A DNA stretch of 64,000 bases, taken from NCBI GenBank assembly GCA_037447655.1, contig JBBHKE010001504.1, forward strand, positions 62,001-126,000. Reading direction: 5' to 3'. The stretch's first letter is position 1. Every line of letters starts with the position of its first letter. The stretch is from Zygnema cylindricum. Taxonomy: Eukaryota > Streptophyta > Zygnematophyceae > Zygnematales > Zygnemataceae. Positions 670 through 52,519 of the stretch are shown here, in pieces. The notes under the pieces are model-generated. The model ran no database searches and was not told where the DNA came from. It was given only the letters and a program-made list of their open reading frames with translations. The position numbers and the translations under genes are program-made.

Positions 670-1711
670 TGTTGAAATAAGTAGTTTTTAGTATATTTTC
701 TAGGTCTAAATTTATTAGAAAAGAAAATGTAGGCAGCCTGCCTCTATCTCTTCTCTCTCTCTCGCCCCCATACTTGTTGTAGTTACTGAAAGAGAGAGAG
801 AGAGAGCAATGGAGCCATGGTTGCCTCTACTCCATAGGAAGGACTAAAGAGTGGCTTAAGCCACTCTCAACAAAAGGTTGAGTCCGGTAGGACTCGAACC
901 CCCGACCGGCAAAGCGCGGCGTAGCGTTAGCTCTAACCAGTCTGTCGTAGAAGTGCGTTAGGAGATATAGGGTTTCATTACTATTTAAACTATTCTAATG
1001 TAATAGATTCCTTTAGCTGAAACCCTTAATGCCACACATAGATACAGTTCTACAAAATACGAAGTACTGTACTTGTTTGAAATGGATATCGCGCATTTTG
1101 TTTCGACAGCGAAACAAATATCGCGCAAGTATTTATTACGGTCGAGATTGAATTTCGCATGAAATCTAACTGCGCGCATCATCGCCGAAATCCCGGAATG
1201 GTCATTTTGGCATTAAGTGACGTGGCATGACCTGGCGCCACGTGGGAAGACATCATTCGGTCGCGGGAATTCCGATGAACGTACGGACGAGTGGAAAGTG
1301 GACACGCGTCCACTTAATGGCCTTATCGTACAGAGGTCGTACAGAAAGTACATCGGCAGTAGTACTTCCTAGTACTATACAGTTTTGTGATTGGTTTGTA
1401 CAGGCAGTAGATAGGAGCTGTGAGAAGGAATTAGGAAAAACTAGGACTTAGGAAAATTTAGGTAGATAGTCCTCTCTCTCTGAGAGTTTGTATAAATTGG
1501 CATCTTTGCCACCCTATAACTTATCGGATGGTTAGCCGTTTTCAGTGATTCTTTTTGCTACGGACTCAGGGGAGTCCAGGCTGCATAAGGGTGCAGTCAA
1601 ATTGTCAGTTTGACTTCTTGGGCAGAAGTGGTCGTGGCTGAAAGTGGGTTAGTTAAACACTATCTAGAGGCTTCCTGTATTCTGTAGTCCAATGGAGGAC
1701 ACAGAATTGCA
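670..1711 (+). repeat. copia 3' LTR
   Basis: The repeat starts TGTTGAAATAAG just after the polypurine tract and ends GAATTGCA, so it has TG...CA ends and is about 1042 bp long. It matches the LTRs at 23526-24530, 38149-39170 and 42829-43846 along its length. A CT/GA-rich stretch lies near 740-810, with the CCATGG-containing block common to the family. The 5' partner is outside the window, so a target duplication cannot be tested. Confidence 0.88.
876..950 (-). other. tRNA-like module antisense in LTR (copy 1)
   Basis: Read on the minus strand, this has a D-arm-like GGTTAGAGC and a B-box GGTTCGAGTCC, followed by GGACTCAACC and four Ts. The B-box half can also form a hairpin (GAGTCC with GGACTC). 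It is not a normal tRNA gene, because the acceptor and anticodon stems are degenerate. A similar module sits at the same place in the other LTRs of the family. Confidence 0.6.
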
Positions 1712-5756: not shown

Positions 5757-6961
5757 AACTACAATTAATAGTTAATATTTGAGTATTTTCTAGGTTTGTA
5801 TTAGGATAGAAAAAGAGATAGAAAAAGAGCAAAGGCAGTTTACCTCTAACTCCCCTCTCTAAGCCCCCACACTTGTCGTAGTCACTGAAGGCTGGATAGG
5901 GAGCTAGAGCCATGGCTGCCTAAGCTCACAAGAGAAGATAGGGGGTGAATTAGGTAGATTTACCAAAAGGTAATTGACGGACCCAAGAATTGATCCTGGT
6001 ACCTGCCGTACGTCAAGTCACCCGTAGCCGTTAGCTTTATCCGTTAATTTTAGGACTAGTGCTAAGATATATAGGGTTTGATAAATATATAAATAGTTAG
6101 AAGTAGAATAATCCGTTTAACAGGAAATAGATTCGCCGTGCCTAAATACAGTTTCATATAGTACGGAGTACGGTAGGTGACGAAACGTATACCGCGCATT
6201 TTGCTTCGTCAGCGAAACAAATACCGCACATCAATTTTCGACGGTTGTATTTTAAAGCCGGTTTTTATCGGACGGCCGCAATAGATGCCAGATCCCGGAA
6301 TAGGTTTTTGGTGGTTTGCGGTCACCGCCACGTCAATTGACACGTGGCACAATAACATTGGATTGCGACATCTCCGGGGATTATAGGAACTAATCCGGAT
6401 ATGGCATGTGTCGACCTTTTGGCCATGTCGTACGATGGCCATACAAAAGGTACACCGGCACCTGTACCTTTATATACTTTACAGTATTGCGATTGATTCG
6501 TACCTTAATACTAGGGGGTTTAGAGAGGGGGTTTTAGGACTTAGAAAATTTTTGTAGGTAACCACCTCTTTGCCAAAGAACATCTGTATAAACCGACAAA
6601 CTTTGCCATTTAATATCAACTCATTTAGTTGACCATTTCCAGTGATTCCTTTTGCTCCGAACTCAGAGGAGTCCAAGCTACACAGGGGTGTAGTCGGTCA
6701 AAGTGTTTGCCTGCTAGGGTGGCTGCATTTCTAAGGGAAAGTCAAAGTGGTGAATGTGTCCAAAACTCATTTTCTACCTTTGCATTATGTGATGGAACTA
6801 AGCACACGGAAAGTCTTATTTCACAAGGGTGAAGTTGTATTGGGGTTTTGATTGTCAAGGGGTCAGTCATTTGGGTTTATGTAAACTTGGATTCGGCACT
6901 TTCTAGATTAGCTTCTTTTAATCTGCGAATTCTGTGGGACAATGGAGCCCATAAAATTTCA
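5757..6961 (+). repeat. solo copia-type LTR, longer subfamily
   Basis: It follows the LTR family plan: TTTTCTAGG near the start, a CT-rich block, CTTGTCGTAGTCACTGAAGG, the CCATGGCTGCC block, an antisense tRNA-like module, a run of CACGTGGC-type words, and an end resembling ATTCTGTGG..CAATGGAG. No internal domain lies on either side, so it is a solo LTR. It is closest to 13913-15091. The 5' edge is degenerate and no target duplication was found, so both ends are good to about 10 bp. Confidence 0.72.
5975..6060 (-). other. tRNA-like module antisense in LTR (copy 2)
   Basis: On the minus strand it reads GGATAAAGC in the D-arm region, then AGGATCAATTCTTGGGTCCGTCA as the T-arm and 3' end, then TTTT. 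The B-box is weaker than in other copies. Confidence 0.5.
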
Positions 6962-13912: not shown

Positions 13913-15091
13913 TGTTATTCTATGGGCTCCATTGCCACACAGAATTCGCAAGTCCAAAGTAGTTAATCTAGATAGTGCCGACTCTAAGTTTATATGAACC
14001 CAAAATGATTGACCTATTAAAAATTTGAACCCCATTACAGCTTCACCCTTGTGAAATAAGACTTTCAGTGTACTCTGTTCCACCACAAAATTGAAAGTTA
14101 GAATATGAGTTTTGGATAACATTTCCCACTTTGACTTTCTCTTAGAAATTCAGCCACCGTGGCAAGCAAACACACTAACCAACTACACCCTTGACTTGCG
14201 TGGACTCCATTGATTCCGTAGCAAAAACAATCACTAAAAATGGTTGACTAAATGAGTTTATATTAAATGGCAAAGTTTGTCGATTTATATAGATGCTCTA
14301 TAGGAGAGAGGTGGCTACCTACCAAAATAATCTAAGTCCTACAACCCCTCTCTAAACCCTCTAGTATAGAGGTACGGACCAATCGCAGCACTGTATAGTT
14401 TATAAAGGTATAGGTGCCAGTGTACCTTTTGTACGGCCATCATACGACTTGGCCAAAAAGTCTATACATGGCATATATGGATTTGTTCCTATAATCCCTG
14501 GAGATGCCGCAAGCCAATGTGGTTGTGCCACATATCAATTGATGTTGCTATTACCACAAACCGCCAAAAACCCTTTCCGCGATATCGCCATCAATCACGG
14601 TCGTCCAATCAGAACCAGCATTTAATTGTAGCCGTCAAAAATTGATGCGCGATATTTGTTTGGCTATCTAAACAAATGCGCAATATTTATTTCTTCATCG
14701 TATCATACTCCCTACTATAAAAAATTGTATCTATGCACTACATATCTATTTCTCGTTAAACGAATTAGTCTATGTGTAATCATTTAAGAAATTATCAAAC
14801 ACTACTTATTATAACACTAGTGTTAGGCTTAACGGACAAAACTAACAGCTATAGGTGACTTAACAGACAGAGGTACCAGGATATATTCCTGGGTCTGTCA
14901 AGACCCTTTTTCGTAAATCTACCTAATCTAACCCTTGTCTTCTCTAGAGGGTCTAGGTAGCCATGGCTCAATCTCCCTATCCAGCCATCAGTGACTACAA
15001 CAAGTGTGAAGGCTTAGAGAAGGGAGTTAGAGGTAGACTGCTTCTGCCTTTTAGTATCCTTATATAGACCTAGAAAACACACAAATATCAA
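13913..15091 (-). repeat. solo copia LTR nested in the older copia element
   Basis: On the minus strand it starts TGTTGATATTTG at 15091 and ends at 13913 with CA. It interrupts the RT frame of the older element cleanly: GAGAGCTT lies to the left, and ACTT followed by TCTTGCG to the right. The flank is a 4-5 bp duplication with one change, and removing the LTR joins the reading frame. It matches the solo LTR at 5757-6961. Confidence 0.85.
14820..14905 (+). other. tRNA-like module antisense in LTR (copy 3)
   Basis: Antisense to its LTR, so read here on the plus strand: a decayed D-arm region, then CCAGGATATATTCCTGGGTC as the T-arm and five Ts at 14907-14911. The B-box is poor (ATATATT loop) but the stem is kept. 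Confidence 0.5.
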
Positions 15092-17262: not shown

Positions 17263-17269
17263 GTAGTCC

Positions 17270-23525: not shown

Positions 23526-24530
23526 TGCAATTCTGTGTCCTCCATTGGACCACAAAATACAGGAAGCCTCTAGATAGTATTTAACTAACCCACTTCAAGC
23601 CACAACCACTGTTGTCCAGGAAGGCAAAATGGCAGTTTGATTGCACCCCTATGCAGCCTGGACTCCCTTGAGTCCGTAGCAAAAAGAATCACTGAAAACG
23701 GCCAACTAGCCGATAAGTTATGAGGCAGTAAAAATGCCAATTTGTATAAACTCTCAACGAGAGAGGTGACTACCTACCAAAATTTTCAAAGTCCTGATTC
23801 CCTCTAGTAACTTTTATCTACTGAAGTACGGACCAATCAGATTACTGTACCGTACCAAAAAGTATTACTGCTAGTGTACCTTTTGTACGTCATATGTACG
23901 ACAAGGCTATTAAGTGGACACGTGTCCGTTTTTCACTCGTTCGTACGTTCGTTAAAATTCCCATGACCGAAAGTCATCTCTCCACGTGGCTCCAGGTCAT
24001 GCCACGTCACAAAACGCCCAAGTGACCATTCCGGAATCTCGGCGAAGACGTATGCCGTTGGATAAGAACCGGCAATAAATGTCGTCCGTCAAAACAAATG
24101 TCAGATTCATTTGTTTCGTGCGGGATTCAGTCCACACTGAATTTAACCTGTTCTATGATGTTAGATTTACATTTCCGTTAATCCGATTACGGGACGTAAC
24201 ATACTTTAAATATGAGTCACACCCTATATACTGCAGGGAACATCTACGACAGACAGGTTAGAGCGGATGGCTACGCCACGCTCTACCGGTCGGGGGTTCG
24301 AGTCCTGCGGGACTCAACCTTTTTGTAGAGAGTGACTTAAGTTCACTCTTTAACCCTATCTATGGAGCTGAGGCAGCCATGGCTCTATCACTCTCTCTCT
24401 CCTTCAGTGACTACAGCAAGTATGGGGGTAAGAGAGAAGAGATGAAGACAAGCTGCGTGCATGTTTCTTTTTCCACAAATATATTAAGACCTAGAAAATA
24501 ACAAAAAACTAAAACCTATTTATTTCAACA
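23526..24530 (-). repeat. 3' LTR of the minus-strand copia element
   Basis: It starts TGTTGAAATAAATAGG at 24530 and ends GAATTGCA at 23526, about 1005 bp. The polypurine tract (ATAAGGGGAG) lies just inside it. Confidence 0.88.
24243..24319 (+). other. tRNA-like module antisense in LTR (copy 4)
   Basis: Read on the plus strand (antisense to the LTR): D-arm-like GGTTAGAGC at 24256-24264, B-box GGTTCGAGTCC at 24295-24305, a closing GGACTCAACC that can pair with the B-box half, then five Ts at 24320-24324. This gives the parts of a small Pol III unit. The tRNA fold itself is imperfect. Confidence 0.65.
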
Positions 24531-24554: not shown

Positions 24555-25421
24555 TTAATTTTCTTTTAACCCGCGTTTTTCCTGACAATAATTTAATTTA
24601 GGAGAGGGCACATGTTTGGTCATCATGTCATCCACCATTTCTTCATTAGGTCTATACACAAGATTTAAAATTTTATTTTCAACTTTTTCTCTCACGAAAC
24701 TTAATCTTATGTCCATATGCTTTGCTTTGAAATGGTGTTTTGGATTGGGTGCAATTGATATTGCTGCTTGATTATCACAAAAAACTTCATGCACTCCCTC
24801 CTTCATATATCCCAGTTCTTGCAACAATGATTTCACCCACATTAGTTCTTTTACAGCAGAACAAGACGCCGTATACTCAGCCTCCATAGTAGACTGAGCA
24901 ACCACCTTTTGTTGCTTCCTGCTCCAAAAGCAAGCACCTTCCCCCACATACAAAACATATCTCGAAGTCCTTTTTCTCATAGGTGCATCCCCATAACAAG
25001 CATCACTCCAAGTGGTGATATCAGTGTGCTCCCCTCCCAAATGCAACCATAATTCTCTAGTTCCAACCAGATATCTCATGACTCTATTGGCTGCCTCCCA
25101 ATCTCTCTTCCTAGGATCATTAAGACTCCTACTGAGTACTCCTACTGCTGTCGCTATGTATGGCCTTGTACAGTACATAAAGTAGATTAAATTTCCTACG
25201 ACCTGTCTGTAAGGAATAGACTTCATAAACTCTCTCTCCTCTAGACTCATCTGATCATCTAAGATTATCACTCCTCCTTCTACACTCCCATCACTTACTT
25301 TCTTCAAGTCCATGGGAGTGGTACAACTGGTAGCTTTCTCCATTTGAAATTTCATAAGCATATTTCCTATTGATTCTTTCTGAGTGAGTCTTATGATCCT
25401 CTTCCCCATATCTCTTTCCAA
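24555..25421 (-). pseudogene. copia RT end and RNase H (minus strand)
   Basis: This open frame of 288 codons holds the end of RT (MERDMGKRIIRLTQKESIGN) and the RNase H domain (WSDACYGD, TMEAEY, CDNQAA, HHFKAKHMDIR). It ends in LKEN with a stop 25 bp before the LTR. It is cut off from the upstream RT by a 40-bp tandem duplication, so it cannot be made as part of the normal polyprotein. Confidence 0.9.
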
Positions 25422-25980
25422 TTGAATTCCTTATGATCCTCTTCCCCCTATCTCTTTCCATTTCAATTCCCAAAATATATCTTGCCTCCCCTAAATCTTT
25501 CATGTCAAATCTACTTCTAAGATCTTTCTTCAACTTATTTATCTTTTCCAAAGACTTACTTAACACCAACAGATCATCCACATAAATTCCAATAAAGATC
25601 ACACCATCCTCACCTTCAAACATATAGATAGAATGGTCAGAACTGATCCTGATATATCCTAGACCAGTAATAAACTCATCTAGTTTCTTATTCCATTGTC
25701 TGGGAGCCTGCTTAAGTCTATATAAGAACTTTATGAGCCTGCAGACTTTGCTCTCTTGTCCTTCCTCCATAAACCCCTCGGGTTGCCTCATGAAAATTTC
25801 TTCCTCTAAGTCACCATTAAGAAAAGCAGTCTTAATGTCCAACTGGTGTATTTCCATGTCTTCCTCTGCTGCCAAACAGAGGAGAATCCTTACTGATGGG
25901 AACCGAACAACTGGAGCAAAGGTCTCCTCATAGTCAATCCCCTCCTTTTGGGTGAACCCCTTCGCTACTAATCGAGCTTT
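25291..25980 (-). pseudogene. copia RT core (minus strand)
   Basis: It holds the RT palm with MEIHQLDIKTAFLNGDLEEE and the catalytic IYVDDLL at 25573-25584, then KDLGEARYILGIEMERD. After the duplication the frame reads nonsense to 25291. Upstream (25875-26030) the start of RT continues with stops. Confidence 0.88.
25390..25469 (-). repeat. 40-bp tandem duplication inside RT
   Basis: Bases 25390-25429 and 25430-25469 are two 40-bp copies with three differences. As 40 is not a multiple of three, the second copy shifts the reading frame. Confidence 0.9.
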
Positions 25981-26028
25981 ATATCTCTCAATGGTATTAT
26001 TTGGGTTCAGTTTTAGTTTAAATACCCA

Positions 26029-26754
26029 TTAACACCCAATAGGTTTTCTGTCTGGAGGACAATCCGCTAGTTCCCAAGTATTTGCTTCCATGATGGAGGC
26101 CATCTCATCATTTATGGCTCTAATCCATCTTTCTTTCTCCGAACTATTTACTGCCTCTGAGTAAGACCGAGGCTCATCTGGGTGAGATAGCTTAGTTACC
26201 TTATGAGCGGCCTGTTTTTCCTGTATCGTTTTGCTGCTCCTTCTCCCTCCCTCAAAATCCGAAGCTGGAATGGATGGAAGTCTTGGATTTCTCCTCACTG
26301 TGTTATCGGCTCTCCTGTTCATGGAAGCCGGTTCTGGTCTCGCTTCTTCTATCTCCTCGAGGTCCATAGAAGTGTGTGAGGTTTCCGGTGAGTCTTTTGT
26401 ATCTCGGATCTCCCTTGAATATGCAATCACGGTTTCACTCATGTCCCTTTCGGGAACGACCGAGTCCTCCTCACTTTCGAACTCAAATCTGATTTTTATC
26501 TTCTGTGTATACTTGAAGGGATCAAATAACTTTCCTTCATCCATGACAACTAGGTGTTTGACTAGGTTGATATCCTTCTTTGCTAAGTCATAGACTCTAT
26601 ACCCCTTAACATCCTTATCATATCCCACAAAGTATCCAGGTTTTCCCCTAGCATCTAGTTTCCAGTTTTTCCTATCCGTGTCAAGACTGTAAACTTGGCT
26701 ACTAGAACACTTTAAGGTGTGAAACATCTGGTTTCCTTCCAACCCATCTCTCAT
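26029..26754 (-). pseudogene. copia integrase C-terminus and linker to RT (minus strand)
   Basis: This is the open frame between integrase and RT. GYFVGYDKDVKGYRVYD is the typical copia 'GY' motif after the integrase core, followed by a variable acidic linker and the first RT segment (ANTWELADCPPDRKPIGC). A stop follows at 26029. Confidence 0.85.
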
Positions 26755-26800
26755 AAGGTGTCACTCCCTTTACAGCTGAGGTAAGGACTCTACTCTTAAT

Positions 26801-27720
26801 TTAGTTGGCACAGTTCATTCGCTCTGCCCAAAATCTCTTTCCTATTTTCTTGTCGGCCAACATACTGCGTACACTATCTCCTAGTGTTCGATTCAACCTC
26901 TGAGCTACCCCATTTTGTTCCGGGTTATATGGTACAGTTTTCTGGTGCTGTACTCCCTCATCTCTCAGATATTCCTCAAACTCGTTAGAGGTATATTCCC
27001 CCCTATTATCACTCTTTATCCTTTTAATCGGGGTTTCATGCAACTTCTCACTCCAGACTGTATATTCTTTGAAGTAAGTTGATGTTTCAGACTTTGTTTT
27101 TAGAAAGTATACTCTAGAGTATATAGACCAGTCATTGGTTATTGTCATCATAAACATTTTTCCTCCAACCGAAAGTACTTTTGGAGGTCCCCAAATATCT
27201 GTGTGGACCAAATCTAATACTTTCTCACCTCTATATGTGGCGCCTTTGGGAAAGTGAAGTCTGTGAGCCTTACCTTGAGCACAACCACTACAATCATCCA
27301 TCATTTCATTATTCTCAAATTGAATGCCTTCTACTACCCCAAGCTTTTTCATTTCCCTCAACCTATCAAAATGTACATGTCCCAACCGCTTATGCCAAAT
27401 CATCAACTTAGGAACACCAACATAGTAAGCATTCTTCTTTTCATTACTCAGGTTAAGCCTAAACATTCCTTCGCTACCCTTATATGCCGTGAAGTAAACT
27501 TCATCCCCATACTTAGCTGTAAAGACTCCCATTCTAGTGAAGGTATCAAACTCTTTGTCATCTAACACAGACGTAGAGACAAGATTTTTACTCAGCTGAG
27601 GAATGTAGAGTACATTTGAGAATGTGAGTATAGAAGTCTTACCCTCCACTAAGACTTTCAGATCTACCGACCCCACTAGAGCTGTAGTAACCACTCTCCC
27701 ATCCCCATACTATATTTCTA
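26801..27720 (-). pseudogene. copia protease end, GAG-pre-integrase and integrase core (minus strand)
   Basis: It has NVLYIPQLSKNLVSTS (end of protease), IWHKRLGHVHFDRL with C..C (GAG-pre-integrase), then the integrase core: HTDIWGP (first Asp) and KSDNRGEYTS (second Asp). The third site reads NGVAQRLNRT, where the catalytic Glu is replaced by Gln (CAG codon). The enzyme would be dead as it stands. The frame is open for 297 codons, so decay is recent. Confidence 0.88.
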
Positions 27721-27839
27721 GAGTAGGGATTTTCCTTAGCTTAGTGAAGAGTTCCTCACATATGCATGGATGGAATTGAGTTAATGATCCATCTTTCCTG
27801 TGCAGCTTCTCGAATTGCTCTAAGGGCACACTTCTATCT

Positions 27840-28880
27840 CCGTAGGATCTCCTTCTCCTCTAGACTCTCGTCAAAGAGAAACTCCCCATCCTCCTCATAA
27901 GACTCATCCTCAGTTTCTCCTGTCACTTTTTTGACCAAAAACGCCTTTTTCTTTCCTTCAGAAGAACCCCCTCCACGGTTCTCTTGGAGCCTCAGCTCCG
28001 ACGGCTTGACACAATGTGCAATAAAGTGTCCCTGCTTTTTGCAAAAATGAAAAAGGCACTTTGGGGGCCTAGGTCCTCCAGACTGATCTCTTTCCTGTTT
28101 GTATGGTTTCTGCGAGTCTTTCCCCCATCGGTCCCCTCTTACTGCTAGAGCTTGAACACTCTTCCCTCCTCTCCTAATCTACATTGTATTTACCTACACA
28201 AGTATCATCCAAACCACTATATTCCACTTCCATGAACTATCAGTCATTTCCTGTACTCCGTACACTATGTTCTCGTTCTCGTATGGTAACTTCATGATGT
28301 GAGTGTTAACTTTCATTTTCATTGTACCTATCCATCCGGAACTTTCCATCTCCATATACAAACAAAAGAGATCATTACAGTAATCTAACATCTTTCCTCC
28401 TTTGTAAGTGTAACTCGCTAGCTTTTGCTCAGCCAACTAGACCTCGTGAATAACTCCAGCTCTATAGATCTCCCCGAAACTCTCCCACAACTCCTCGGCC
28501 TTGTAAATGTGAAGGTGAGGGGTGGCCAAACCTTAAGTGAGGTGTCTTAAAAAGAAGTTCTTGATAGCCATGTTTTCGTCTTCCCACACTAAAGTATCGC
28601 TCTCCGCGGTCTTCACGTCCACCGATCCCAATGCCATAGCAATACGGTTGAGGGGTGTTTCCTTCCTTTTCCCTTTTTCGGACACATTGTTGTCCACATC
28701 ATCTGCCTTCTCCGCGAAAGCAGTCGCTGCTGTAAAAAACCTTACTCCTCCAAATCCCGGCGGAATTCCCAAAGGTGGACATTTCACTTGTCCACTAAGG
28801 ATACCCCAGTATCGTTTTTCGCAAAATCATGGCTTCCCAATAGATGAAACTAGATCCATTGAAGGTGGGCACCCTAGAGA
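27840..28880 (-). pseudogene. copia gag with zinc knuckle, broken (minus strand)
   Basis: Gag pieces in several frames: VSEKGKRKETPLNRIAMAL (28670-28610), KMLDYCNDLFCLYMEMESSG (28400-28330) and a zinc-knuckle-like C....CKKQGHFIAHC near 28070-28020, followed by a Lys/Glu-rich tail. The knuckle's first gap is four residues instead of two. Stops break it. The first part recurs at 37808-38136. Confidence 0.75.
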
Positions 28881-28894
28881 GTGGGCCCATAACC
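28881..28894 (-). promoter_or_regulatory. primer-binding site complementary to the tRNA-iMet anticodon arm
   Basis: Next to the 5' LTR end the minus strand reads GGTTATGGGCCCAC. This is complementary to GTGGGCCCATAACC of the plant initiator tRNA-Met anticodon arm, not to its 3' CCA end. This fits half-tRNA priming as in Drosophila copia. Confidence 0.7.
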
Positions 28895-29243
28895 TGCAAT
28901 TCTGAGTCCTCCATTGGACCACAGAATACATGAAGCCTCTAGATAGTATTTAATTAACCCACTTCAAGCCACAACCAATGCTTTCCAAAATGGCAAACTG
29001 ACAGTTTGAATGCACCACTATACAGCGTGGACTCCCCTGAGTCCGTTGCAAAAAGAATCACTGAAAACGGCTAACCATCCGATAAGTTATGAGGCAGTAA
29101 AAAATGCCAATTTGTACAAACTCTTAAAGGGAGAGGTGACTACCTACCAAAATTTTCTAAGTCTTGATTCCCTTTATAACTTCTAGTAACTGTAGTACGG
29201 ACCAATCAGATTACTGTACTGTACCAAAAAAGTTCTACTGCCG
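28895..29243 (-). repeat. truncated 5' LTR of the minus-strand copia element
   Basis: Only the 3' third of the LTR is left. It matches 23526-23880 and 38149-38515. It stops at CTGCCGG, where a plus-strand LTR begins. Confidence 0.82.
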
Positions 29244-30330
29244 GTTGTAGAAATTAATGGTCCGTTTAAAGTAATTTCTAGGTCTAAATAGAAATATAGA
29301 AAGGAGCCGAGGCAGTCTATCTCTAACTTTTCTCTCCAACTCTCAAACTTGTCGCAATCACTGAGAAATTGGAGAGGAAGCTAGAGCCATGGCTACCTAG
29401 GCTATCCAGAGGTTTACGGGAAATATACATATTAGTTTATTTATCTTTAAGGGTTTATTCACTAATAGAATATGTGATGCCCCCAAGATTCGATCCTCGT
29501 ACCTGTCACACAGTAAGCAACCGGTAGCCAGTAGCCTTATTTGTTAAGTCTAGACCTAGTGTTACGTACTATAAAGTTTGATGTTTAATTAAACATTAAT
29601 ACGTAGGATAATTCATTTAACTGAAACAGTTTACGGGAGACATTGATCTAGTAATGTAAAAATACGCATTACGGTACGGATAAGAAACGAATACTGCACA
29701 TTTATTTCTTTAGCGAAACGAATACCGCGCATGTATTTATTACGGCTATGATTAAATGTGAATTTAATCGGACGGCCGAAATTAGGGAGATCGCAGAAGA
29801 CGTTTTCGGCGGTTTTTGGTCATCGCCACATCGGATGACACGTGGCGGAATGAAATTGGTTCGCGGCATCTTCGAGGATTAAGAGAGCGAATCCGGATAT
29901 ACCACGTGTCGACATTTAGGTCATGTCGTACAGAGTTTTTATAGAAAGCACATCGGCAGCTTTTCTATTGTGTACGGAAGTGCAATGTGATTCGCTCCGT
30001 ACATCAGTTGATAGAGTCTGTGAGAGAGATAGGACTTAGAAATATTAGGAGATAGGATCCTCTCTCCCAGAGAGCTACTGTACAAAAAGGTCAACTTTGA
30101 CCCTTTATAACTTACTTCTCAAGGGAGCAAATTCAGAGATTCTTTTTGCTATCGACTCAAGGGAATCTTCTCTTCATAAGGGTGAAGGTGGTTAGAGATT
30201 TATGTGCCATGGTGGCATTTTTTCTTGCTAAAACACAAAGGGGTCAGGGTTATCCTAGAGACATCATGGAAGCTGTCCATTTTGAGGACTCATGGAGGTC
30301 TTATGGAGGTCTTATGGAGTGTACAAAAAA
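29244..30330 (+). repeat. 5' LTR of a second copia lineage
   Basis: It starts TTGTAGAAATTAATGG and follows the same LTR plan (TTTCTAGGTC, CT-rich block, CTTGTCGCAATCACTGAG, CCATGGC block, antisense tRNA-like module, CACGTGTCGAC, GAGATTCTTTTTGCTA). It is more distant from the others. The right end is uncertain; a gag-like frame follows at about 30430. Confidence 0.65.
29477..29562 (-). other. tRNA-like module antisense in LTR (copy 5)
   Basis: On the minus strand it reads an AATAAGGCT D-arm-like part and the T-arm GAGGATCGAATCTTGGGG, a near B-box. I see no oligo-T close behind it. Confidence 0.5.
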
Positions 30331-32395: not shown

Positions 32396-32396
32396 T

Positions 32397-32720
32397 ATGA
32401 GGTTGGTCGGTGAAGGAGGAGACCCTTTGATATTTAGGGGTCAAATAGGAGCGAGTGCATCTTACTTCATGGTGAACTCCGGAGCATTGGGGAAATTCAT
32501 TAACGAGGCGACGGTGAAAAGGTTGAAACTTCCTCTTGTGGTACTAAAGGATAATCAGTCGGTACAACTAGCCAACGGCAGTTCCTTCTCAATTACCCAT
32601 CGTACTCGAGGTTACGCGTCGAAATTGGGAAATTTCGATGGTACGAAACGTTTCATGTATTACCTCTTGGGGACCATGAGGTAATCTTTGGGAAGCCGTG
32701 GCTGCAAAAATGGAATTCGA
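32397..32720 (+). pseudogene. gypsy aspartic protease remains
   Basis: The frame reads FRGQIGASASYFMVNSGALG. The active site normally reads D-[ST]-G-A; here it is N-S-G-A, so the catalytic Asp has become Asn. VKRLKLPLV and QLANGS follow, as in gypsy proteases. It stops at about 32684. Confidence 0.8.
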
Positions 32721-32743
32721 CGATCGATTGGAGAAGTGGCGCC

Positions 32744-33705
32744 ATGAGAGTGAAGAAAGGTGAAGAAGAGTTTGAGGTAAAAGCGGGAGCGGCTGGCAAG
32801 GGAGCCGAAGAGGGACGCCTGCTTTCGGCCTTAAAGCTCAAGAGGGCACTTAAGAAAGGGGAAACGATTGGTATGGCGGTCGTCCAGCCAATGGAGGAGG
32901 CGAAGGAGGAGATCTCGGAAGAATGGAAGAAGAAGGACCTTGACTTCGAAGAAAGTGACGACATTGGAAAGACTTTCGAAGAGGCCTCGGAAGTCATGAC
33001 AAAACTTCTCGAGGAGTACGCAGATGTATTTCCCCTGAAGTTCCCCGAAGGATTACCTCCGAAGCGCGAAGTAGACCATAGGATAGAGCTTGTTCCTGGA
33101 GCGGTACCACCGGCTAATCGGATGTACAAGATGAGCTACACCGAGTAGGACGAACTGAAAAAGCAACTCGCGGAGTGCGTTAAAGCCGGAGCAATCGAAC
33201 CAAGCAAGTCACCGTATAGAGCCCCCGTTCTCTTTGTGAACAAGAAAGATGGAGGTTTCCGTATGTGTGTAGACTACCGAGCGCTGAACAAATTAATGGT
33301 GAAGAATGCGTACCCCCTGCCGAGGATAGACGAATTGTTGGATCGACTTCGAGGTGCTAAATAATTTTCGAAAATAGACTTGCGGAGCTGCTACCACCAG
33401 ATTAGAATTGCCAAGGAGATGTGGAGAAAACGGCGTTCAGAACTCGATACGGTCATTTCCAATTTCGGGTAATGCCGTTCTGGTTGACTAACGCACCGGC
33501 AACTTTTAAGCATTTAATGAATTCCATATTTCGGCAATATCTGGACACGTTTGTGATCGTCTTCCTAGACGACATACTGGTGTATAGCCAAACGCAAGAG
33601 GAGCATATGAAGCACTTACGGACGGTCCTCCAGGTCCTTCGGGAAAATAATTTGTACGTAAAAAGAAATAAATGTGACTTCTTCAAGGAGAAGATTGTTT
33701 TTTAG
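32744..33705 (+). pseudogene. gypsy reverse transcriptase
   Basis: It has YADVFPLKFPEGLPPKREVDH, then VPPANRMYKMS and a stop at 33146, [40 protein letters not shown], and [15 protein letters not shown] after a second stop. A frameshift near 33415 leads to [15 protein letters not shown] and the catalytic FLDDILVYS (about 33560-33590). The family usually has YLDD or FLDD. At least two stops and one shift break it. Confidence 0.88.
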
Positions 33706-33710
33706 GCCAT

Positions 33711-34340
33711 GTGGTGAGCCGGGACGGAATCGCAGTGGAACCAAACAAGACAAAGGTCGTTAAGGAGTGGCCCCAGCCAGCAAATATCACGCAGTTACGG
33801 AGCTTTCTAGGACTATGCTCCTATTATCGCCTTTTTGTCGAAGGTTTCACAAAAGTTGCTGCACCGCTCACGGAATTGCTCAAGAATGACGTTCCCTATG
33901 ATTGGAAAGCGGCACAAGGGACAGCCTTTAACACGTTAAAGAAGCGGTTGGTTACCGCCCCTGTGTTAGCTGTTCCCGACCCGGACTTACCTTGGACGAT
34001 TATTACCGACGCTAGCGATACGGCTATTGGAGCGATCCTTATGCAAGATCAAGGGAAAGGCCTTCAACCCATCGCCTACGAGAGTCGAAAACTAAAGGCA
34101 GCAGAGCTAAACTGGGCCACTCATGAGAAAGAGACAATAGCTATCATCAATGCGATGGAGGTTTGGAAGTGTTACGTTCAGGGGAAATAAATCACGATTA
34201 TCACCGATAACCACGCCTTACAATATCTCCAAACCCAACCGAAGTTGTCCAAAAAACAAGTGCGCTGGATGACGTTTTTTGTAGACCTTTGGTCTGGAAC
34301 TTGTTAAAGAATATAAGCCAGGCAAAACGAACCCGGCGGA
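33711..34340 (+). pseudogene. gypsy RNase H
   Basis: It starts after a one-base shift with VEPNKTKVVKEWPQP and LRSFLGLCSYYRLFV (RT thumb). RNase H has TDASDTAIGAILMQ (first Asp), ESRKLKAAELNWATHEKE (Glu) and, after a TAA, IITDNHALQYL (Asp). It ends in KPGKTNPADALSR-like sequence in mixed frames. Confidence 0.86.
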
Positions 34341-34494
34341 TGCGCTGTCAAGAAGAATCAGAGTCGCTGCGCCAGTAGCGGAGCAACCACCATAAACATC
34401 GTAGTATGGGAACGTAAGCTCTGCAAAAGGGGACACCGCAGCGTCGACTGCAGCGCAAGATCCGAAACTCAGCGCAGTCACCAGTACAATTCAA

Positions 34495-35333
34495 GTGGAC
34501 GAACAATGGTTAGGTGGGATAAAGGCCACCTATGGCAACGATGATTCACTAAAGGAACTCATTAAACAGAAGGTACTCGTTCGAACCGCCAATTGTATGT
34601 GGCGATACAGACCGAGTAAGACGACACGGTTTTATGTGCCATCAAACACGGAACTCCGTAACATGATTCTTAAAATGAGTCACGACGAGACGCTCAGTGG
34701 ACATTTTAGGCGGGATAAAACAACCGCACATGTCGCTGAGGCGTATTACTGGCCAAACATGACTCGAGACATTGCAGAATATGTTCAAACGTGTGACTCC
34801 TGTAATAGGAACAAACCAGATTCAAGGCAACAAGGTCTGTTACAACCCCTTCTGATACCATTTGTTCCTTGTGAGGCGATTTCGATGGATTTCATTGTGG
34901 CCCTTCCACTAACGAAGGAGGTTTACGACTTAATCTTCGTCGTCGTGGATTACCTGACAAAAATGGCACATTTTCTACCCATGTCTACCACAGCTACTGC
35001 ACGCGATATCGCGAACTTATTCTTTCGATGATATTCCGCCATCACAGACTTCCGACAATGATCGTCAGCGACCGGGATCGTAAATTCGTGAGCCACTTTT
35101 GGCAAAATCTATTTGCGTTATGTGGCACGCAGCTGGGCATGTCCACAACCTACCACCCTCAAACTGATGGTCAGACTGAAAGGGTGAATCGATCTTTGGA
35201 GGAAGCATTGCGGGCTTATGTTTTGGTGCACCAAACGGAATGGGTAAACAATTTAACAGTGATCGAGGTAGCATACAACAATGCACTACACTCGTCAAAG
35301 AATGCTACGCCATTCTCCCTCAATAGACGATAG
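34495..35333 (+). pseudogene. gypsy integrase
   Basis: This is an HHCC zinc domain (H in KMSHDETLSGHF, C..C in QTCDSCNRNK) and a DD(35)E core: MDFIVALP, IVSDRDRKFVSHFW and HPQTDGQTERVNRS. All three acidic sites are present. A TGA at 35029-35031 and a frame change at 35028 split the core between the first and second Asp. A stop at 35331 ends the second half. Confidence 0.88.
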
Positions 35334-35455
35334 CCCACTCTTCCCCAAACCTTATTGGTAGCGAACTGCCAAACACCGGCAGCTCTGGATTTTGCCAAAA
35401 CGTTGTAAGGAAGCATGGAAAAGGCGGCCATGGGGCTCCAAATGGCAAAAAAAAA

Positions 35456-35975
35456 TTGTCAAAAGTGCAGGCCGACGCTCATCGGAAGGACACCGTCTTT
35501 CGCGTGGGGGACAAGGTTCGCCTTAATATGGAAAACCTCACCTTGCCGGGTGCCCTCTCTACGAAGTTGGCAACGAAGTTCATGCGACTGTTCACAATTA
35601 TTTCCCGTGTCGGCGACGTGGCTTACAAATTGGATATCTCGACAGACTGGAATATCCACAATGTCTTCCATGTTTCCCTCTAACAACTATTCCACGATCT
35701 TGATTCAATGTTCCCTCATCGACGACAAAATACTCTTTTACCACCCGTTTGGGGAACCTCGGACGAGTATAAGATGGAAGAGATCCTTCAGTCACGCCAC
35801 TCTCGGAATTCCACCTCTACCCAATATTTGGTGCGTTGGAAGGGCTACGGTGCTGAGGACGACTCTAAGGTGGACGAGGGGGATCTGCATTCTCCGGAGA
35901 TGCTGCGCCAATTTCAGCGGAGTGAGGACACTCAGCTTTACCAGAGGGGCAATCGCAGCGGCCGCAATAAAGGAG
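35456..35975 (+). pseudogene. gypsy integrase tail with chromodomain
   Basis: The tail frame 35456-35683 has DTVFRVGDKVRLNMENL and FMRLFTIISRVGDVAYKLD, the GPY/F-type module of chromovirus integrases. A shifted frame (35708-35960) has YKMEEILQSR, TQYLVRWKGYG and a closing LRQFQ: a chromodomain, which in this family guides insertion to marked chromatin. The aromatic residues at YLVRWKGYG are present. It is cut off soon after by copia sequence. Confidence 0.85.
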
Positions 35976-36735
35976 CATGGAATTCGGGCAGAAATTGGAA
36001 GGAATTGATACAGATTCATGCATAATGGTTGGTGGGAGTCTAGAGACATGGGAGGAAGAGTTTATGGCTTCAAAGCCATATAGACAAGTAGGCAGAAGTC
36101 TTATATATTTTATGAATTGTACGAGACCCGACATTGTAGCAGTTGTGAGAGTCTTGAGTAGAAGTCTGCAGAATCCTAAAAGGGCATATTGGGAAGCAGC
36201 GAAAAGGGTGTTGAGATATCTTGCACGAACAGGAAATCTCAAGCTTCTACTCGGAGGAGGAGAGGTGAAAACATAGACGTAGAGCGATGCCAGCTATGGG
36301 GACATGTCAAGCCAGAAATCTACAACTGGTTTTGTACTTAAGATTGGAGATGGAACTTGCAGTTGGAGTAGCAAATTACAAAAGGTTACAGCTCAATCCA
36401 CAATGGAGTCTGAATATATGGCAGCAGCTTTGGCCCTCAAGGAGCTCCTATGGGTCAAGTCTATTCTACAGGAACTTGGGTACATACAAACAGGTCCTCA
36501 ATCTATTTGGTGTGACATCCAGGCAGCCATTGCTATTGCCTCTAACCCCAGCCATCATTTTAAAAGTAAACACATGGATGTTAGACTTCACTTTGTCAAG
36601 GAAAAAGTACTTGCAAAAGTCATTAAGTTGTGTTATTTACCGGATGAGAAGATGGTGGCTGACTTGTTAACAAAAGCCCTTCCTGCTCCTAAGTTACAAT
36701 TTTGCAGAGAAGGTGTTGGACTAAGTGAGAATTAA
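35976..36735 (+). pseudogene. copia RT end and RNase H
   Basis: It begins abruptly at the MEFxxKLEG segment, which in other copia elements here (21706, 15571) lies between RT and RNase H. It then holds IYFMNCTRPDI, a TAG at 36274, SDASYGD, TMESEY, WCDIQAAIAIA (D kept, N changed) and a complete C-terminus (SHHFKSKHMDVR, MVADLLTKALP) to TAA 36735. A polypurine tract and an LTR follow. One in-frame stop makes it a pseudogene. Confidence 0.87.
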
Positions 36736-36756
36736 GTCTAAAGATATAGGGGAGTG

Positions 36757-37756
36757 TTGAGATTTTAAATCTTTAGTTAGAAAATAGAGTAGACTTAGAA
36801 TATTTTCTAAGAAGTGGTATATAATACTTACTTTTATTAGTGTTACAGTAGGCAAAGTACAATAGAGTGTATTGTACCTCTGCAGGTTTTACGCAGTGAT
36901 GTCAACACGCGTCACGCAACAAACAATTAGAATCGCCAGATCAGACGGACAGAATCTGATCCGGATATCTTTGGAAAATATATGGTACGGCTATTTTTGG
37001 AGTCATACAGATATTTTGGCATTATATGGTACGGAATATTTTTATGATCATAAAATAGAAACGTCCGGATATTTCGGAAGTGAATTATGATCATTGATTT
37101 TGAGAGACGTCGACGGACGCGATTCACCTGGGACCATAATTATGATTCACGTGTACCGCAAATGACGAGGCGTGATTCACGTGGGACCACAATTGACGAA
37201 GAACTCAAGTGCTTCGTACTACACTACGACAATCGGCTGGACTTTAGCAATCACCGTGACTAAGCACCTGGAACATTTTTGTACGGCTCGTTATCTGAAA
37301 TATTTGAATAACAGAGTTTTGTAGTTTACTGTATTAAAATTTAGTGTTTCATTAATTAGTTTTCTGGAAATTAATAATTAGGTTTTTGGAGGTACTCTAG
37401 GTGTAGTAAAGTACATGCTGGACACTTTGTCGTTAGTCAAGATAGTTCCATACCACGGTCACCCGAATTTGTGTGACCAGCAGATACTCACTGTGAGTAT
37501 ATAATCTATGACTTAGCCAATTTTGTATCATCCAGTTTTGGGAATATGATTTTCTAAGGGCAATTTTTGGGAAACTTCTAGACAACATATCTTATGGTTT
37601 ACTATGTCATTTGGGCTGCAATTTTGGGAATTATCAGTTTATTGTATTGTAAGTCACTGTGGCAAATTTGAAAAATATTGGATTTCTGAGTCATATTTTG
37701 TGTCAGTTCTAAGTTGGCTGTTGAGTAAATACTTTGGTATTTTCTGTTGTTCTCCA
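36757..37756 (+). repeat. copia LTR and leader
   Basis: It starts TGTTGAGATTTTAAATC just after GGGGAG. Its right part resembles the LTR and leader at 18060-18306 (CAATTTTTGGGAAACTTCTA and a following ATG in the same context). The exact LTR end is not clear. It is flanked by RNase H on the left and gag on the right. Confidence 0.68.
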
Positions 37757-37807
37757 TGTCTACTTCCACTACTACTGCTGGTTCTGCAGCTGCAACGATG
37801 GTTGTAG
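37757..37807 (+). pseudogene. copia gag start, 17 codons, truncated
   Basis: MSTSTTTAGSAAATMVVEEH matches the gag start at 18307 (MSTSTTTSAPPP...VIEQQ). It ends at the join to the minus-strand fragment at about 37808. Confidence 0.65.
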
Positions 37808-38133
37808 AAGAACATTTACGTCTTCCCACATTTCAGTATCGTTCTCCACGGTCTTCACCACCGCCGATCCCGGTGCCATGGCAATAGTGGTGAGGGGTGT
37901 CTCCTTTCCTTTCCCTTTTTCAGACACACTGTTGTCCCCATCATTTGCCTCCTCCAACGAAGCAATCGCTGCCGCAGAAAAACCTTAATCCTCCAAATCA
38001 TGGCGAAATTCCCGAAGGTGGAAGTTTCACTTGTCCACTGATGATACCCCAGTATCGTTTTTCACACAAAGCTCCCATCATCATGGCTTCCGAATAGATG
38101 AACCCAGATCCATTGAAGGTGGGCACCCTAGAG

Positions 38134-38148
38134 GGTGGGCCCATAACC
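38134..38148 (-). promoter_or_regulatory. primer-binding site complementary to the tRNA-iMet anticodon arm
   Basis: GGTTATGGGCCCACC directly follows the LTR end (GAATTGCA). All 15 bases are complementary to the initiator tRNA-Met anticodon arm as I know it from plants (GGTGGGCCCATAACC). Confidence 0.75.
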
Positions 38149-39170
38149 TGCAATTCTGTGTCCTTCATTATTCTGTGTCTTTCATTGGACTACAGAATAC
38201 AAAAAGCCTCTAGATAGTATTTAAGTAACCCACTTTAAGCCACGACCACTGTTTCCCAAGAAGGCAAACTGACAGTTTGGCTGCACCCTTGTGCATTTTC
38301 GACTCTCCGGATTCCGTAGCAAAAAGAATCACTGAAAACGGCCAACCAGCCGATAAGTTATGAGGCACTAAAAATGCCGATTTGTATAAACTCTCAAAGG
38401 GAGAGGTGACTACCTACCAAAATTTTCTAAGTCCTGATTCCTTCTAATAACTTCTATTTACTGAAGTACGGACCAATCAAATTACTGTATCGTACCAAAA
38501 AGTACTGCTGCCGGTGTACCTTTTGTACGGTCTATGTACGACAAAGCTATTAAGTGGACGCGTGTCCACTTTTTACTTGTCCGTACATTCCTCGGAATTC
38601 CTATGACCGAATGTCATCTCTCCACGTGGATCCAGGTCATGCCACATCACAAAACGCCAAGGTGACCACTCCGAGATTTCGGCGATGACGTGCGCCGTCG
38701 GATTCGTAATGAGATGTAACCTTAACCTTTATAATTACTTGCGAGATGTTTGTTTTGCTGTCAAACAAATGCGAGGTATTCATTCTGAAATGATGTCGTA
38801 ATAAAACTGTATCTATGCACGCCGTATCTAGTTTTAGTTAAATGGATTTCTTACTTCCTTAATGTATATATATCTATCATACTCTATAGCACTTAGCATT
38901 GGTCCTAGTCTAGTAGGATAAAGCTGATCGCTATCGGCCAACTTGACGAACCGCAGGTTCCGGGTTCAAATCCCAGGTCCGTCAGGACTATTTTTAGTAA
39001 ACTAAAATTAACTACCTGTTGAACTAAGGCAGCCATGGATCAACCACCTTCTCTATCCTTAAGTGACTACAACAAGTATGGGGGCTAGAGAAAGGAGGTG
39101 GAGGCATGCTGTCTGTCCTTTTACTTTTTCCTAACCTAGAAAATACTATAGAAATCTATGAATTTCAACA
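38149..39170 (-). repeat. LTR of the minus-strand copia fragment
   Basis: It starts TGTTGAAATTCATAG at 39170 and ends GAATTGCA at 38149, 1022 bp. A short internal duplication (ATTCTGTGTCYTTCATT) lies near its end at 38153-38187. Confidence 0.87.
38900..38985 (+). other. tRNA-like module antisense in LTR (copy 6), best boxes
   Basis: On the plus strand, A-box TAGTCTAGTAGG (38906-38917) fits TRGYNNARNNG. B-box GGTTCAAATCC (38963-38973) is a full consensus. The T-arm CCGGGTTCAAATCCCAG is nearly complete, and TTTTT lies at 38991-38995. Box spacing (45 bp) is normal for a tRNA gene. The anticodon stem is not clear, so I call it tRNA-like. Confidence 0.68.
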
Positions 39171-39959: not shown

Positions 39960-42828
39960 ATAGATATGTATTTGTATGACTTTATATAAAGCTATGAAAA
40001 GTTGATATCAAAAATTATATTTAATCCTAATTGGTTGTTAACGTCTTAAAGTAAGCTGCATAGGTATACATACTTTGACACACTTATGTTCTAACACTAT
40101 TTCTTCAACGAAATATTCTTGCTGTTTGGAAGTATGTATGTTTTCTATGCTTATACCATCACTCTATGGTTGTTGTTCCAATAAAAGTTGCAAATAGACT
40201 CTTTACATATAATGCATATCGTACAATTGCTTATTGAACACATAAACGTATATTTGTATACTACTTTGGTAAGGCTCAACAAAGCGTGATAAAACAACAC
40301 GATACATGCCCATATAACAAGCATAACAATCATGTCCGTGTAACGGGTATTGATTGACTAAAGTGAAAAAAAACACATTGTGTAACAAAATACACCAACA
40401 TGAGATCTGTAGCTAAAAAAAACATTTGATTTTTGACAGTTACACATAGATATAGGCGGAGAATGGTTAGTTAAGTATAGTTAGTCAATTGAAATTGCTA
40501 GAGCCAGACACCATTGAATGTTATTACAAAGGTGACACTCAGTCATCAATAAACCTATTTAATCTCAACTATTATATTCCTGTTGTGAAGTAGACTAAAT
40601 ATGATTATGAACTTCAAAACATGTTTGTTTGCACAGAATGACATCTTACATGGGACATTCCCTCGGTTTAAAATTGTCTATATTTGTGTTGTAAATCAAA
40701 ACACCCTATGGTTGTTAATCCCATGTATAATTTACAGTTGTATAGTTCATCAAAAAACCCACCTGTAGTTGTTCCCAAATATATAGAGTACAAAAACTCT
40801 ATACAACCTTCAACACACACAACACGACCTTTGCCTGTGTAACAGGTATTAATTTATTAGTCTCCCAAAAACGAAAAAAAAAATCTTGTCAGACGCTTCC
40901 ATTGGTAGTATTCACACAAGCGACAAATGTGTGACAGAATCTCGAGTCCAAAATATGGAATGGAAAACCCGAACCCGCCCAAATTTCTCCTCAAACTGTA
41001 CAAGAAAATAACTCACATTCTCGCGCTCCTAGTATAAAATTAGCGTCAATACTCAATGGCCATGTTCTCACTTGCGGCTGTTGGTCGTCGTTCAGTCAAT
41101 CTTAATGATTTGGGTCGTAGTTTAGAAGTTGTTGGCTACTTCGGTACAATTCTTTGGTTGTGGGTAGTCATGTTTCGCGGGTATTTCTCCCCGTAGTCAT
41201 CTTTGGTAATTTATCTATGTACTTTTGTTTTGGTGGTTACTTGTTTTTAGTTAAGGTTTGTCTCTTATTTTCCGTAGTTAAATGTTTTATTTTCCTTTTT
41301 TACCCTTTTTATACCTTGATGGTTCTTCCATCGCACATTTTGCAATAAAGTTTGGTTTTGCTTTTATAAAACGACGCGAGTTCCAAAAATTTGACACTTA
41401 ACAAAATAGGTTTTATTGCCAAAAACGCGGTGGTAAGACCATCAAAGTGCAAAAAAAATATTTTCACTAAAAGGAATAAATGACCAACAAAGGTAAAAGA
41501 CCATAATCCTAAAAGACTTACAACACAGTAGATGTGGTTTAAAAGCCTAAAAAAAAAAAAAAAAACAAATACAACAAAAACCAAACCGCCAAAACACTAC
41601 AAACTACCTTAGACCCTAAAGCATAAGATTATGTCCAAACTAAAGATTAAAACTTTTAATATTGTCTTCTTAGAATATGTAAATGTTTGGTGTCAGCGCA
41701 ATCGATCAGTTACCTTTTCTTTTAACAAGTCCTAATAGCGTATTCCATGCAGATTTGGTTATAGTCATTCACCATTTTTTGGCTAGATTGATCGGACATT
41801 CACCAAAGATTGACTGAACGATGACCAAAAGCGGCAAGTGATAGCACCTCATACTTTCAAATTCTTAAACCTACGATAAAATAATACCGCTACTGTAATA
41901 TAATAAAGTGTAAAGGGACCTCAAGTGTTTTTCTACACCTCCAATACTTCATTACACCTCCAATAATTTACTGCACCACTAATATTAACCTTAGGAACTG
42001 TTCGTGTTACGACTACATTTTCCCTCTATTGTTGCAATTTCGATATAAAGTGTGGCAATTACATCGCTCATCGTGTTTGGTGTTAAAAATTTTTTCACCA
42101 TTTAAAACGTCTTTCCTCCATGGAAACTTGTCGGATTGTCAATAGATGATTGCATTTAGAATGCTAGATGCTCGTCTGTTATTGGCGATCTATCAGTCGA
42201 CAATTAAACAAGTGTGGACGGAAAAAAAGTGTTTTAAATGACGAAAAAACTTTAACACCAATAATAATTAGCGATTTAATGTTGTGTGTCGGGTAAGAAG
42301 TTGTTGCAATAAAAATGATGTTCCATATATCGAATATCGAACGGTTAAAGACATCAATATATCGCATTGGGACCAACTTATACCGCGATACATAATGGAA
42401 AATATATAGTAATATTTAAATTTAGTAATTCATAAGTTCATATAATATAGTATTTCACTGAAAATATTAAATAGTATTGTATGCCACGTATGACGTGAGT
42501 TTAACTACACAACTCAATATGTAACAAAAAAAAATAGTACGTTATAAAATTAGTGCGCACATAGCCAAAAAAATATTAACGAATACGTCACATTCACATC
42601 GCTAAATGGAAATGGATCATTAGTCAACATCATTTTTGTAGACTTTTCGGTTTTTCTCCAACAATATAGAGGCACGAAGCATTTCGTAGTTGTTTTTTTT
42701 GTGAGCTATTCTAAAACTTTGACGGATTTATGTTTTCTATCTTTCCGCCCACTACAATAGTTTCACCTATTTGTTATTTTATAGAGCATACTTTGCAAGC
42801 ATAATGACAATATGTCATTGTTGAAATT
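39819..42828. other. non-coding AT-rich stretch
   Basis: It holds a (TA)n run at 39919-39957, A- and T-runs, a CGATATATCG piece at 42300-42400 and an inverted copy of the 7920-8210 element at about 42300-42600. TGTGTAACRGGTATT occurs twice (near 40338 and 40836). No protein is supported. It may include introns of the 39471 gene. Confidence 0.5.
39919..39957. repeat. (TA)n microsatellite
   Basis: About 19 uninterrupted TA units. Confidence 0.95.
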
Positions 42829-43846
42829 AGTAGATTTCTAGAGTATTTTCTAGGTTTAAATATGTTAGTGAAAAGGACGGGCAACCTTCCTCCACCTCCT
42901 CTCTCTAGCCCCCATACTTGTTGTAGTCACTGAAGGATAGAGAGAGTGGTTGATCCATGGCTGCCTTAGTTCAACAGGCAGTTATTTTTAGCAGGTTACT
43001 AAATATATACCTGATGGACCCGGGATTTGATCCCGATACCTTCGGTTCGTCAAGTTGGCCGATAGCGGTCAGCTTTATCCTATAAGACTAGGACCAGTGC
43101 TAAATGCTATAGTATGTGATAGATATATATATTTGTTTAGGGAGGAACAAATCCATTTAACTAATACTGTATACGGCACGCATAGATACAGTTTTATGAA
43201 AGTACAAAGTACGATTCTATTTCAAAACGGATACCACGCACTTTGTTTTGACAGCGAAACAATATATCGCGCAAGTATTTATAACGGCTAAGATTGCGTC
43301 TCGCTGCAAATCCAACGGCGCACATCATCGCCGAAATTCCAGAGTGGTCACTTTGGCGTTTTGTGACGTGGCATGACCTGGAGCCACGTGGAGAGACGAC
43401 ATTCGGTCATGGGAATTCCAAGGAATGTACGGACGAGTGAAAAGCAGACACGCGTCCGCTTAAAAGCCTTGTCGTACATAGGCCGTACAAAAGGTACACC
43501 TGCAGTAGTACTTTTTGGTACGGTACAGTAATCTGATTGGTCCGTTCTTTAGTAGAAAGAAGTTATTAGAGGGAATCAGGACTTAGAAAATTTTGGTAGG
43601 CAGTCAACTCTCCCTTTAATAGTTTGTCCAAATTGGCATTTTTACTGCCTCATAACTTATCGGTTGGTTGGCTGTTTTCTGTGATTCTTTTTCCAACGAA
43701 CTCATGGGAGTCCAAGATGCACAAGGGTGCAGTCAAACTGTCATTTTGCCTCCATGGACAGCAGTGGTTGTGGCTTAAAGTGGGTTAGTTAAATACTATC
43801 TCGAGGCTTTCTGTATTCTGTGATCTAATGGGGGACACAGAATTGC
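42829..43846 (+). repeat. solo copia LTR with target duplication
   Basis: It starts TGTTGAAATTAG and ends GAATTGCA, 1018 bp, with no internal domain next to it. GTCAT precedes it and ATCAT follows, a 5-bp target duplication with one change. It is nearest to the LTR at 38149-39170. Solo LTRs arise by recombination between the two LTRs of one element. Confidence 0.88.
43011..43096 (-). other. tRNA-like module antisense in LTR (copy 7)
   Basis: On the minus strand, TAGTCTTATAGGATAAAGC resembles an A-box region and GGGATCAAATCCC a B-box. The T-arm stem TCGGG/CCCGG is a full five pairs. No oligo-T is seen close behind. Confidence 0.6.
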
Positions 43847-52454: not shown

Positions 52455-52519
52455 GGATAAATTTTAATATAATGAACACCATGGAGTTGACTAAAAAGTG
52501 TTATCGACGTTATTGAACT

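Follow-up and report, generated by a model that had tools for sequence, protein, structure and literature searches.

LTRs that carry sequence from a small-RNA gene are already known, with tRNA sequence in the Helenus TRIMs and 5S rRNA sequence in Cassandra. Helenus elements are miniature LTR elements with tRNA-like LTRs, the sole plant family being from Selaginella, and their tRNA portion has been proposed as the source of the elements' own template RNA; autonomous partners of Helenus are argued to need Pol II (Kojima 2024, PMC10886601). The same study, which uses TRIMs only, notes that a fair number of Repbase LTRs look like a portion of a tRNA, and the words "antisense" and "opposite" are absent from its main text. 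By word search, "tRNA," "antisense," and "orientation" are absent from the searchable text of the Cassandra paper PMC10853983, as are "tRNA," "Pol III," and "polymerase III" from the main text of the plant TRIM survey PMC4717578. A literature word search with most subscription papers outside its scope returned no earlier description of a tRNA-like module lying antisense in the LTR of a coding copia element. New here are a pol-bearing copia element, a long LTR, an antisense placement, and an apparently swapped module.

The window, a 64-kb stretch of DNA analyzed as a whole, contains one copia clade of seven LTRs that alignment divides into sub-clades A1 (L1 and L24), A2 (L38 and L43), and B (L6, L14, and L29B). 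The original prediction placed a tRNA-like module at one position in each of these LTRs and always antisense to them, and LTR alignment and orientation confirm this in 7 of 7 cases (Table 1), with the module at an offset of 194 to 219 within the LTR. Being homologous, the seven LTRs count as one or two events, not seven.

Table 1. Coordinates of the LTRs, coding region, primer-binding sites (PBS), and modules in the window
Feature	Position	Strand	Remarks
LTR L1	670..1711	+	3' LTR; downstream of copia pol ORF end (ORF 3-653) and purine tract
LTR L24	23526..24530	-	3' LTR, behind minus-strand copia pol
LTR piece	28895..29245	-	Taken as 5' LTR of L24's element; 88.8% identical to L24 over 348 columns; stops at start of L29B
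LTR L38	38149..39170	-	5' LTR, followed by PBS
LTR L43	42819..43847	+	Identified by LTR matching
LTR L6	5771..6957	+	Matched extent, not exact ends
LTR L14	13917..15092	-	Matched extent, not exact ends
LTR L29B	29246..30216	+	Abuts the LTR at 28895-29245, apparently inserted in it; 3' end approximate; no TSD shown
Broken copia gag-pol ORFs	24558..28178	-	Adjoin LTR L24; identified by Pfam
PBS, tRNA-iMet anticodon arm	38134..38148	-	15/15 complementary; after L38
PBS, tRNA-iMet anticodon arm	28881..28894	-	14/14 complementary
Module in L38 (A2)	38900..38985	+	A box 38906-38917, B box 38963-38973; TTTTT behind
Module in L43 (A2)	43011..43096	-	B box altered to GGATCAAATCC; TTT only behind
Module in L6 (B)	5975..6060	-	GGATCAATTCT; TTTT behind
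Module in L14 (B)	14820..14905	+	GGATATATTCC; TTTTT behind
Module in L29B (B)	29477..29562	-	GGATCGAATCT; without T-run
Module in L24 (A1)	24243..24319	+	Exchanged or strongly diverged type; GGTTAGAGC, GGTTCGAGTCC, TTTTT; predicted to form two hairpins
Module in L1 (A1)	876..950	-	GGTTAGAGC, GGTTCGAGTCC, TTTT

The ORFs adjoining L24 encode gag_pre-integrs, Pol_BBD, and rve (26804-27709), SH3_retrovirus (26032-26760), and RVT_2 (25294-26028) domains, and the order of rve before RVT_2, together with the PBS and purine tract, identifies a copia LTR retrotransposon. The two outer ORFs of this region have no Pfam match, nor does the ORF upstream of L1. Orientation was set by the minus-strand pol domains (25294-27709) for L24, by the match to the pol end plus LTR of the L24 element for L1, by the PBS for L38, and by LTR alignment for L6, L14, L29B, and L43. 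The A1 and A2 LTRs start with TGTTGAAAT, and their ends lie near GAATTGCA. About 510 to 540 bp beyond the module there is a TATA-like stretch, TTTGTATAAATT at about position 1487 in L1 and TTTATACAAATC at about 38390 in L38; on this basis the module is probably located in the U3 part of the LTR. The copies are old, given a difference of 11% between the two LTR pieces that are taken as mates in the pol-bearing element. The module-bearing part of the 28895-29245 piece was not found, and among the elements identified in the window none has two complete LTRs.

No match to this LTR clade occurs in the other copia LTR regions of the window (16150-18300, 22200-23520, and 36600-38160), and a sequence search of viral contigs returned no further copies. 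Six short contigs in bacterial and archaeal assemblies (L001-L006) encode copia-like reverse transcriptases with 41 to 50% protein identity; they are likely contamination by eukaryotic DNA. Elsewhere in the window, Gypsy-type reverse transcriptase RNase H domains lie on the plus strand at 33678-34187, with more pol-like ORFs around them (about 32379-35680). LysM and copia proteins encoded in the window suggest that the DNA is from a plant. A long foldback at 41307-41454, perhaps MITE-like, has sub-threshold MIR5512 matches of 34.7 bits on one strand and 32.8 bits on the other (cut-off, 139), and an imperfect palindrome of 143 bp at 52519-52661 is 75.5% identical to its own reverse complement.

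The analysis shows the homologous position and strand of the modules, their likeness to tRNAs, their T-runs, and the anomalous divergence of those in A1, whereas their route of origin, the exchange in A1, and any Pol III activity are inferred. At slightly better than even odds (a probability of about 0.55), they descend from an old captured sequence of tRNA or SINE type that was inherited with the LTR and is mostly a passenger, at most weakly active in the best copies. A tRNA gene or the head of a tRNA-type SINE would have been inserted, antisense, into the U3 of an ancestral copia LTR and from then on copied along with that LTR. Since all seven LTRs have the module, uptake would predate the split of the clade. 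In the best-kept copies (38900-38985, 24243-24319, and 876-950), binding of TFIIIC to what is left of the boxes and T-run is conceivable, and the putative product would be an RNA of about 90 nt antisense to U3, a region also present at the 3' end of the element's transcript. In A1, either the module would have been exchanged, with recombination with a different LTR lineage as the probable route, or a second capture would have taken place.

The likeness to tRNAs emerges from pairwise comparison and not from tRNA models. A cloverleaf was recognized neither in the whole window nor in the L24, L38, and L1 modules searched singly: ARAGORN found no tRNA in the window, Rfam found nothing there at gathering and no match to a tRNA family even at E values of up to 10, and Rfam gave no tRNA match for these three modules. 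The best Rfam match of L38 is a weak one (15.6 bits, E=0.73; cut-off, 42.5) to mascRNA, which is itself tRNA-like.

Against a panel of 20 generic plant tRNAs, with reversed tRNAs as the control, modules take ranks 2 to 5 of the best non-overlapping segments among the 6392 scanned (L24, L29B, L1, and L14, scoring 38, 36, 33, and 32), behind an unrelated segment at 60701-60786 with a long gapped match (score, 39; Gly). On the strand given in Table 1, the exact modules score 28 to 38 in all seven cases, compared with 17 to 23 for the reversed tRNAs. Among 6320 background segments, a score of 28 is reached by 61 with tRNAs and likewise by 61 with reversed tRNAs, and a score of 36 by two and none, respectively. 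When gaps are cheap, L24 (42.0) and L1 (39.8) rank first and second, L29B fourth, and L38 sixth; L14 (32.0) is masked by an overlapping, better segment on the opposite strand at 14901, and L43 and L6 fall outside the top 15 with 28.0, a score reached by 203 of 6286 background segments. In BLAST searches with the panel (E up to 5), 14 of 43 matches lie in modules on the same strand as in Table 1, covering six of the seven modules, which constitute 0.9% of the window length; one further match touches L1 on the other strand, and L43 has none.

The best-matching isotypes are iMet or Ala for L6, L14, and L29B, Lys, Asn, Ile, or Glu for L1 and L24, Cys, Leu, Arg, or Glu for L38, and Val for L43, and because different modules match different tRNAs best, no single source tRNA is shown. 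A single isotype for the module family was rejected, as no one tRNA fits all modules, and so was the extension to the family of a tRNA-Arg identity for L38, Arg ranking second in L38 and 8th to 16th in the other six. The comparisons indicate that the module is probably tRNA derived, without a clear isotype.

The foremost alternative, which we consider unlikely, is a chance resemblance, helped by inverted repeats, that arose in a fast-changing U3 and that homology repeats seven times. One LTR offers many segments on two strands, ARAGORN and Rfam are negative, and the segment at 60701 is a strong match in unrelated background. Boxes in relaxed form are also cheap: a looser box pattern recovers the same L38 site alone and means little, because 27.5% of shuffled windows contain at least one instance and 6% contain one with a T-run. 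Chance is opposed by the low score of the reversed-tRNA control for all seven modules, and by the fact that two of the most tRNA-like copies, L24 and L1 (ranks 2 and 4, or 1 and 2 with cheap gaps), are those least like the other modules. It is also opposed by the enrichment of T-runs, which were predicted behind five modules and are there: TTTT occurs no more than 20 nt behind five of seven, against a background of 5 to 14% of same-strand 20-nt LTR windows.

Ranked next, and in our view doubtful, is a Pol III unit or TFIIIC site that works in antisense under selection and would make a short RNA complementary to the U3 RNA end or serve as a boundary. The best copy is as originally described: in L38, the A box TAGTCTAGTAGG and the B box GGTTCAAATCC have 45 nt between them (57 from start to start), with TTTTT behind. 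A box pair in every module was also claimed, and this fails, since the strict A+B pattern is present in one of the seven copies only (38906-38973); by the strict pattern, one of seven modules accordingly has the full set for a type 2 Pol III promoter, namely an A box, a B box, and a T-run. Such a pair occurs in 1 of 200 shuffled windows, and a pair with a T-run in none of the 200. The L1 and L24 modules have a complete B box with a poor A box, and the B boxes of the modules at 5975, 14820, 29477, and 43011 are altered (GGAT...), so that the boxes are broken in most copies. Three of the five strict B boxes in the window are inside modules (shuffles: mean, 1.7; maximum, 7), and loose B boxes are fewer than expected (18, versus a shuffle mean of 30), which counts against the captured-tRNA reading. 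A degenerate pattern built from the modules recovered L1, L24, and L38 in the window, which is circular and not counted as evidence.

A working unit is further disfavored by its predicted folding, which follows no consistent course. The z scores on the LTR strand are -2.9 to -4.4 in L14, L24, L38, and L43, -1.0 in L1, +0.7 in L6, and +1.5 in L29B, and those on the tRNA strand range from -3.0 to -0.35. In the T-stem, four of six predicted pairs have changes on both sides among the seven sequences. Two adjacent hairpins are predicted in both L1 and L24, strong in L24 (z of about -3 to -4 on both strands) and weaker in L1; one of them holds the B box and could mimic it, a point against the captured-tRNA reading. 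A conserved RNA structure was rejected, the energies being inconsistent between copies and strands.

Nor is the module clearly more conserved than the LTR around it: for the ten pairs among the five A2 and B modules, conservation of the module is equaled or exceeded in 10 to 68% of LTR windows of the same length, and between A2 and B the modules (55 to 74% alike) and LTRs (56 to 67%) are much the same. With no clear excess conservation, boxes broken in most copies, and negative tRNA finders, selection keeping the module finds no support. The claim that an LTR family took up a tRNA or SINE head and kept it therefore divides: alignment, scans, and BLAST favor the capture of a tRNA-like sequence, antisense and at a single LTR site, but retention by selection is not supported.

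The A1 modules depart from this pattern. Between A1 and A2, module identity is 0.45 to 0.55 with 8 or 9 gap columns, versus 0.67 to 0.78 for the LTR sides; the likeness of the module is matched or exceeded by 98% of equal-length windows in L1 and by 71% in L24, the latter figure being lower because of another divergent stretch downstream in L24. The A1 modules are 9 to 11 nt shorter at a nearly unchanged offset, which points to exchange or strong divergence and not to an added insertion. Their 70-bp left flanks are related to those of L38, L43, and L6 (0 of 300 shuffles in six of six comparisons), and their right flanks in three of six; in the rest, 14, 14, and 84 of 300 shuffles do as well. 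Among ten comparisons of A1 with A2 or B modules, three are clear (L1-L6, L24-L38, and L24-L29B, reached by 0, 2, and 3 of 300 shuffles) and the remaining seven are reached by 19 to 85 of 300; the L24 and L38 modules align in register over about 59 columns. Since these results are mixed, a common older ancestor of the two module types is conceivable, and A1 and A2/B may share one.

That A1 has the position, strand, B box, T-run, and tRNA-likeness of the module, although the module is otherwise replaced or strongly diverged, speaks in favor of more than decay and for a working unit. In the fullest version of this idea, less probable again, a pol-bearing copia lineage would maintain in its U3 a tRNA-type unit for Pol III or TFIIIC, placed antisense, and a lost unit would be refilled at the same place and on the same strand because it is useful to the element, through control of its own 3' RNA end or as a silencing shield.

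Both PBSs in Table 1 were assigned with a generic tRNA-iMet sequence, which was also used for the pairing comparisons; another of the same type (13/14) lies at 17296-17309, adjoining another copia. An anticodon-arm PBS suggests a half-tRNA primer, as used by Drosophila copia and Ty5, and such a primer lacks the T arm. Better matches to tRNA-iMet than in 500 of 500 shuffles are found in the L6, L14, and L29B modules, and those in L1 and L24 stay at shuffle level, being equaled or surpassed by 222 and 131 of 500, respectively. By duplex energy, tRNA-iMet is the best of 20 partner tRNAs in L6 and L14 only (two of seven modules; about 3 standard deviations below shuffles), 5th in L29B, and 13th to 15th in L1, L24, L38, and L43. 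That the module in the element RNA tethers the primer by pairing with the T arm of tRNA-iMet, for which the PBSs at 38134 and 28881, the L6, L14, and L29B matches, and the U3 part of the Ty3 bipartite PBS (PMC5371799) can be cited, is very improbable, given the low rank of tRNA-iMet in both sub-clades that show a PBS, the shuffle-level matches of L1 and L24, and a half-tRNA primer without a T arm; a primer-tRNA origin or tether was rejected as the main reading, tRNA-iMet being the best partner in two of seven modules only.

If the module is active, Pol III units directed against the element's own transcript would occur in coding LTR elements and not in miniature ones alone, which would offer a simple and testable example of an element producing its own antisense control. 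Should it instead be a relic, as in the preferred reading of a captured passenger, it suggests that tRNA-type sequences enter and change places within long copia LTRs, and it serves as a warning that LTRs of this kind could give rise to spurious tRNA or SINE calls.

Among known systems, the bipartite PBS of Ty3 likewise places a tRNA-complementary stretch in U3, but that stretch is specific for tRNA-iMet, and five of the seven modules here do not prefer this tRNA; by comparison with generic tRNAs, tRNA-iMet is the best partner in two of seven only, and pairing specific for the primer tRNA is thus not seen. The tRNA-derived SINEs (SINE2) have a tRNA-type head with A and B boxes, whereas the modules are inside LTRs, five of seven end in a T-run, and no SINE body or tail was noticed on inspection. 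Cassandra TRIMs, like the LTRs described here, have a small-RNA gene sequence with a Pol III promoter in the LTR, but the sequence is 5S rRNA and not tRNA, and the elements are non-autonomous. Their transcript starts in the 5S portion of the 5' LTR and ends in the 5S portion of the 3' LTR, which makes it sense (PMC10886601). Helenus TRIMs resemble the present elements in having tRNA-like sequence with A and B boxes in their LTRs, often of unclear isotype, and most of their fungal families have an anticodon-loop primer site, chiefly for tRNA-iMet, as found here at two LTRs (PMC10886601). As to the tRNA-derived LTR sequence that characterizes Helenus, the modules are tRNA-like by panel scan and BLAST but not by Rfam or ARAGORN. 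Helenus elements are short and non-coding (families of 311 to 1263 bp) and their boxes are proposed to drive their own transcript (PMC10886601), unlike the elements in this window, in which one LTR alone is about 1 kb, gag-pol lies beside L24, and the module is antisense to the LTR in all seven copies.
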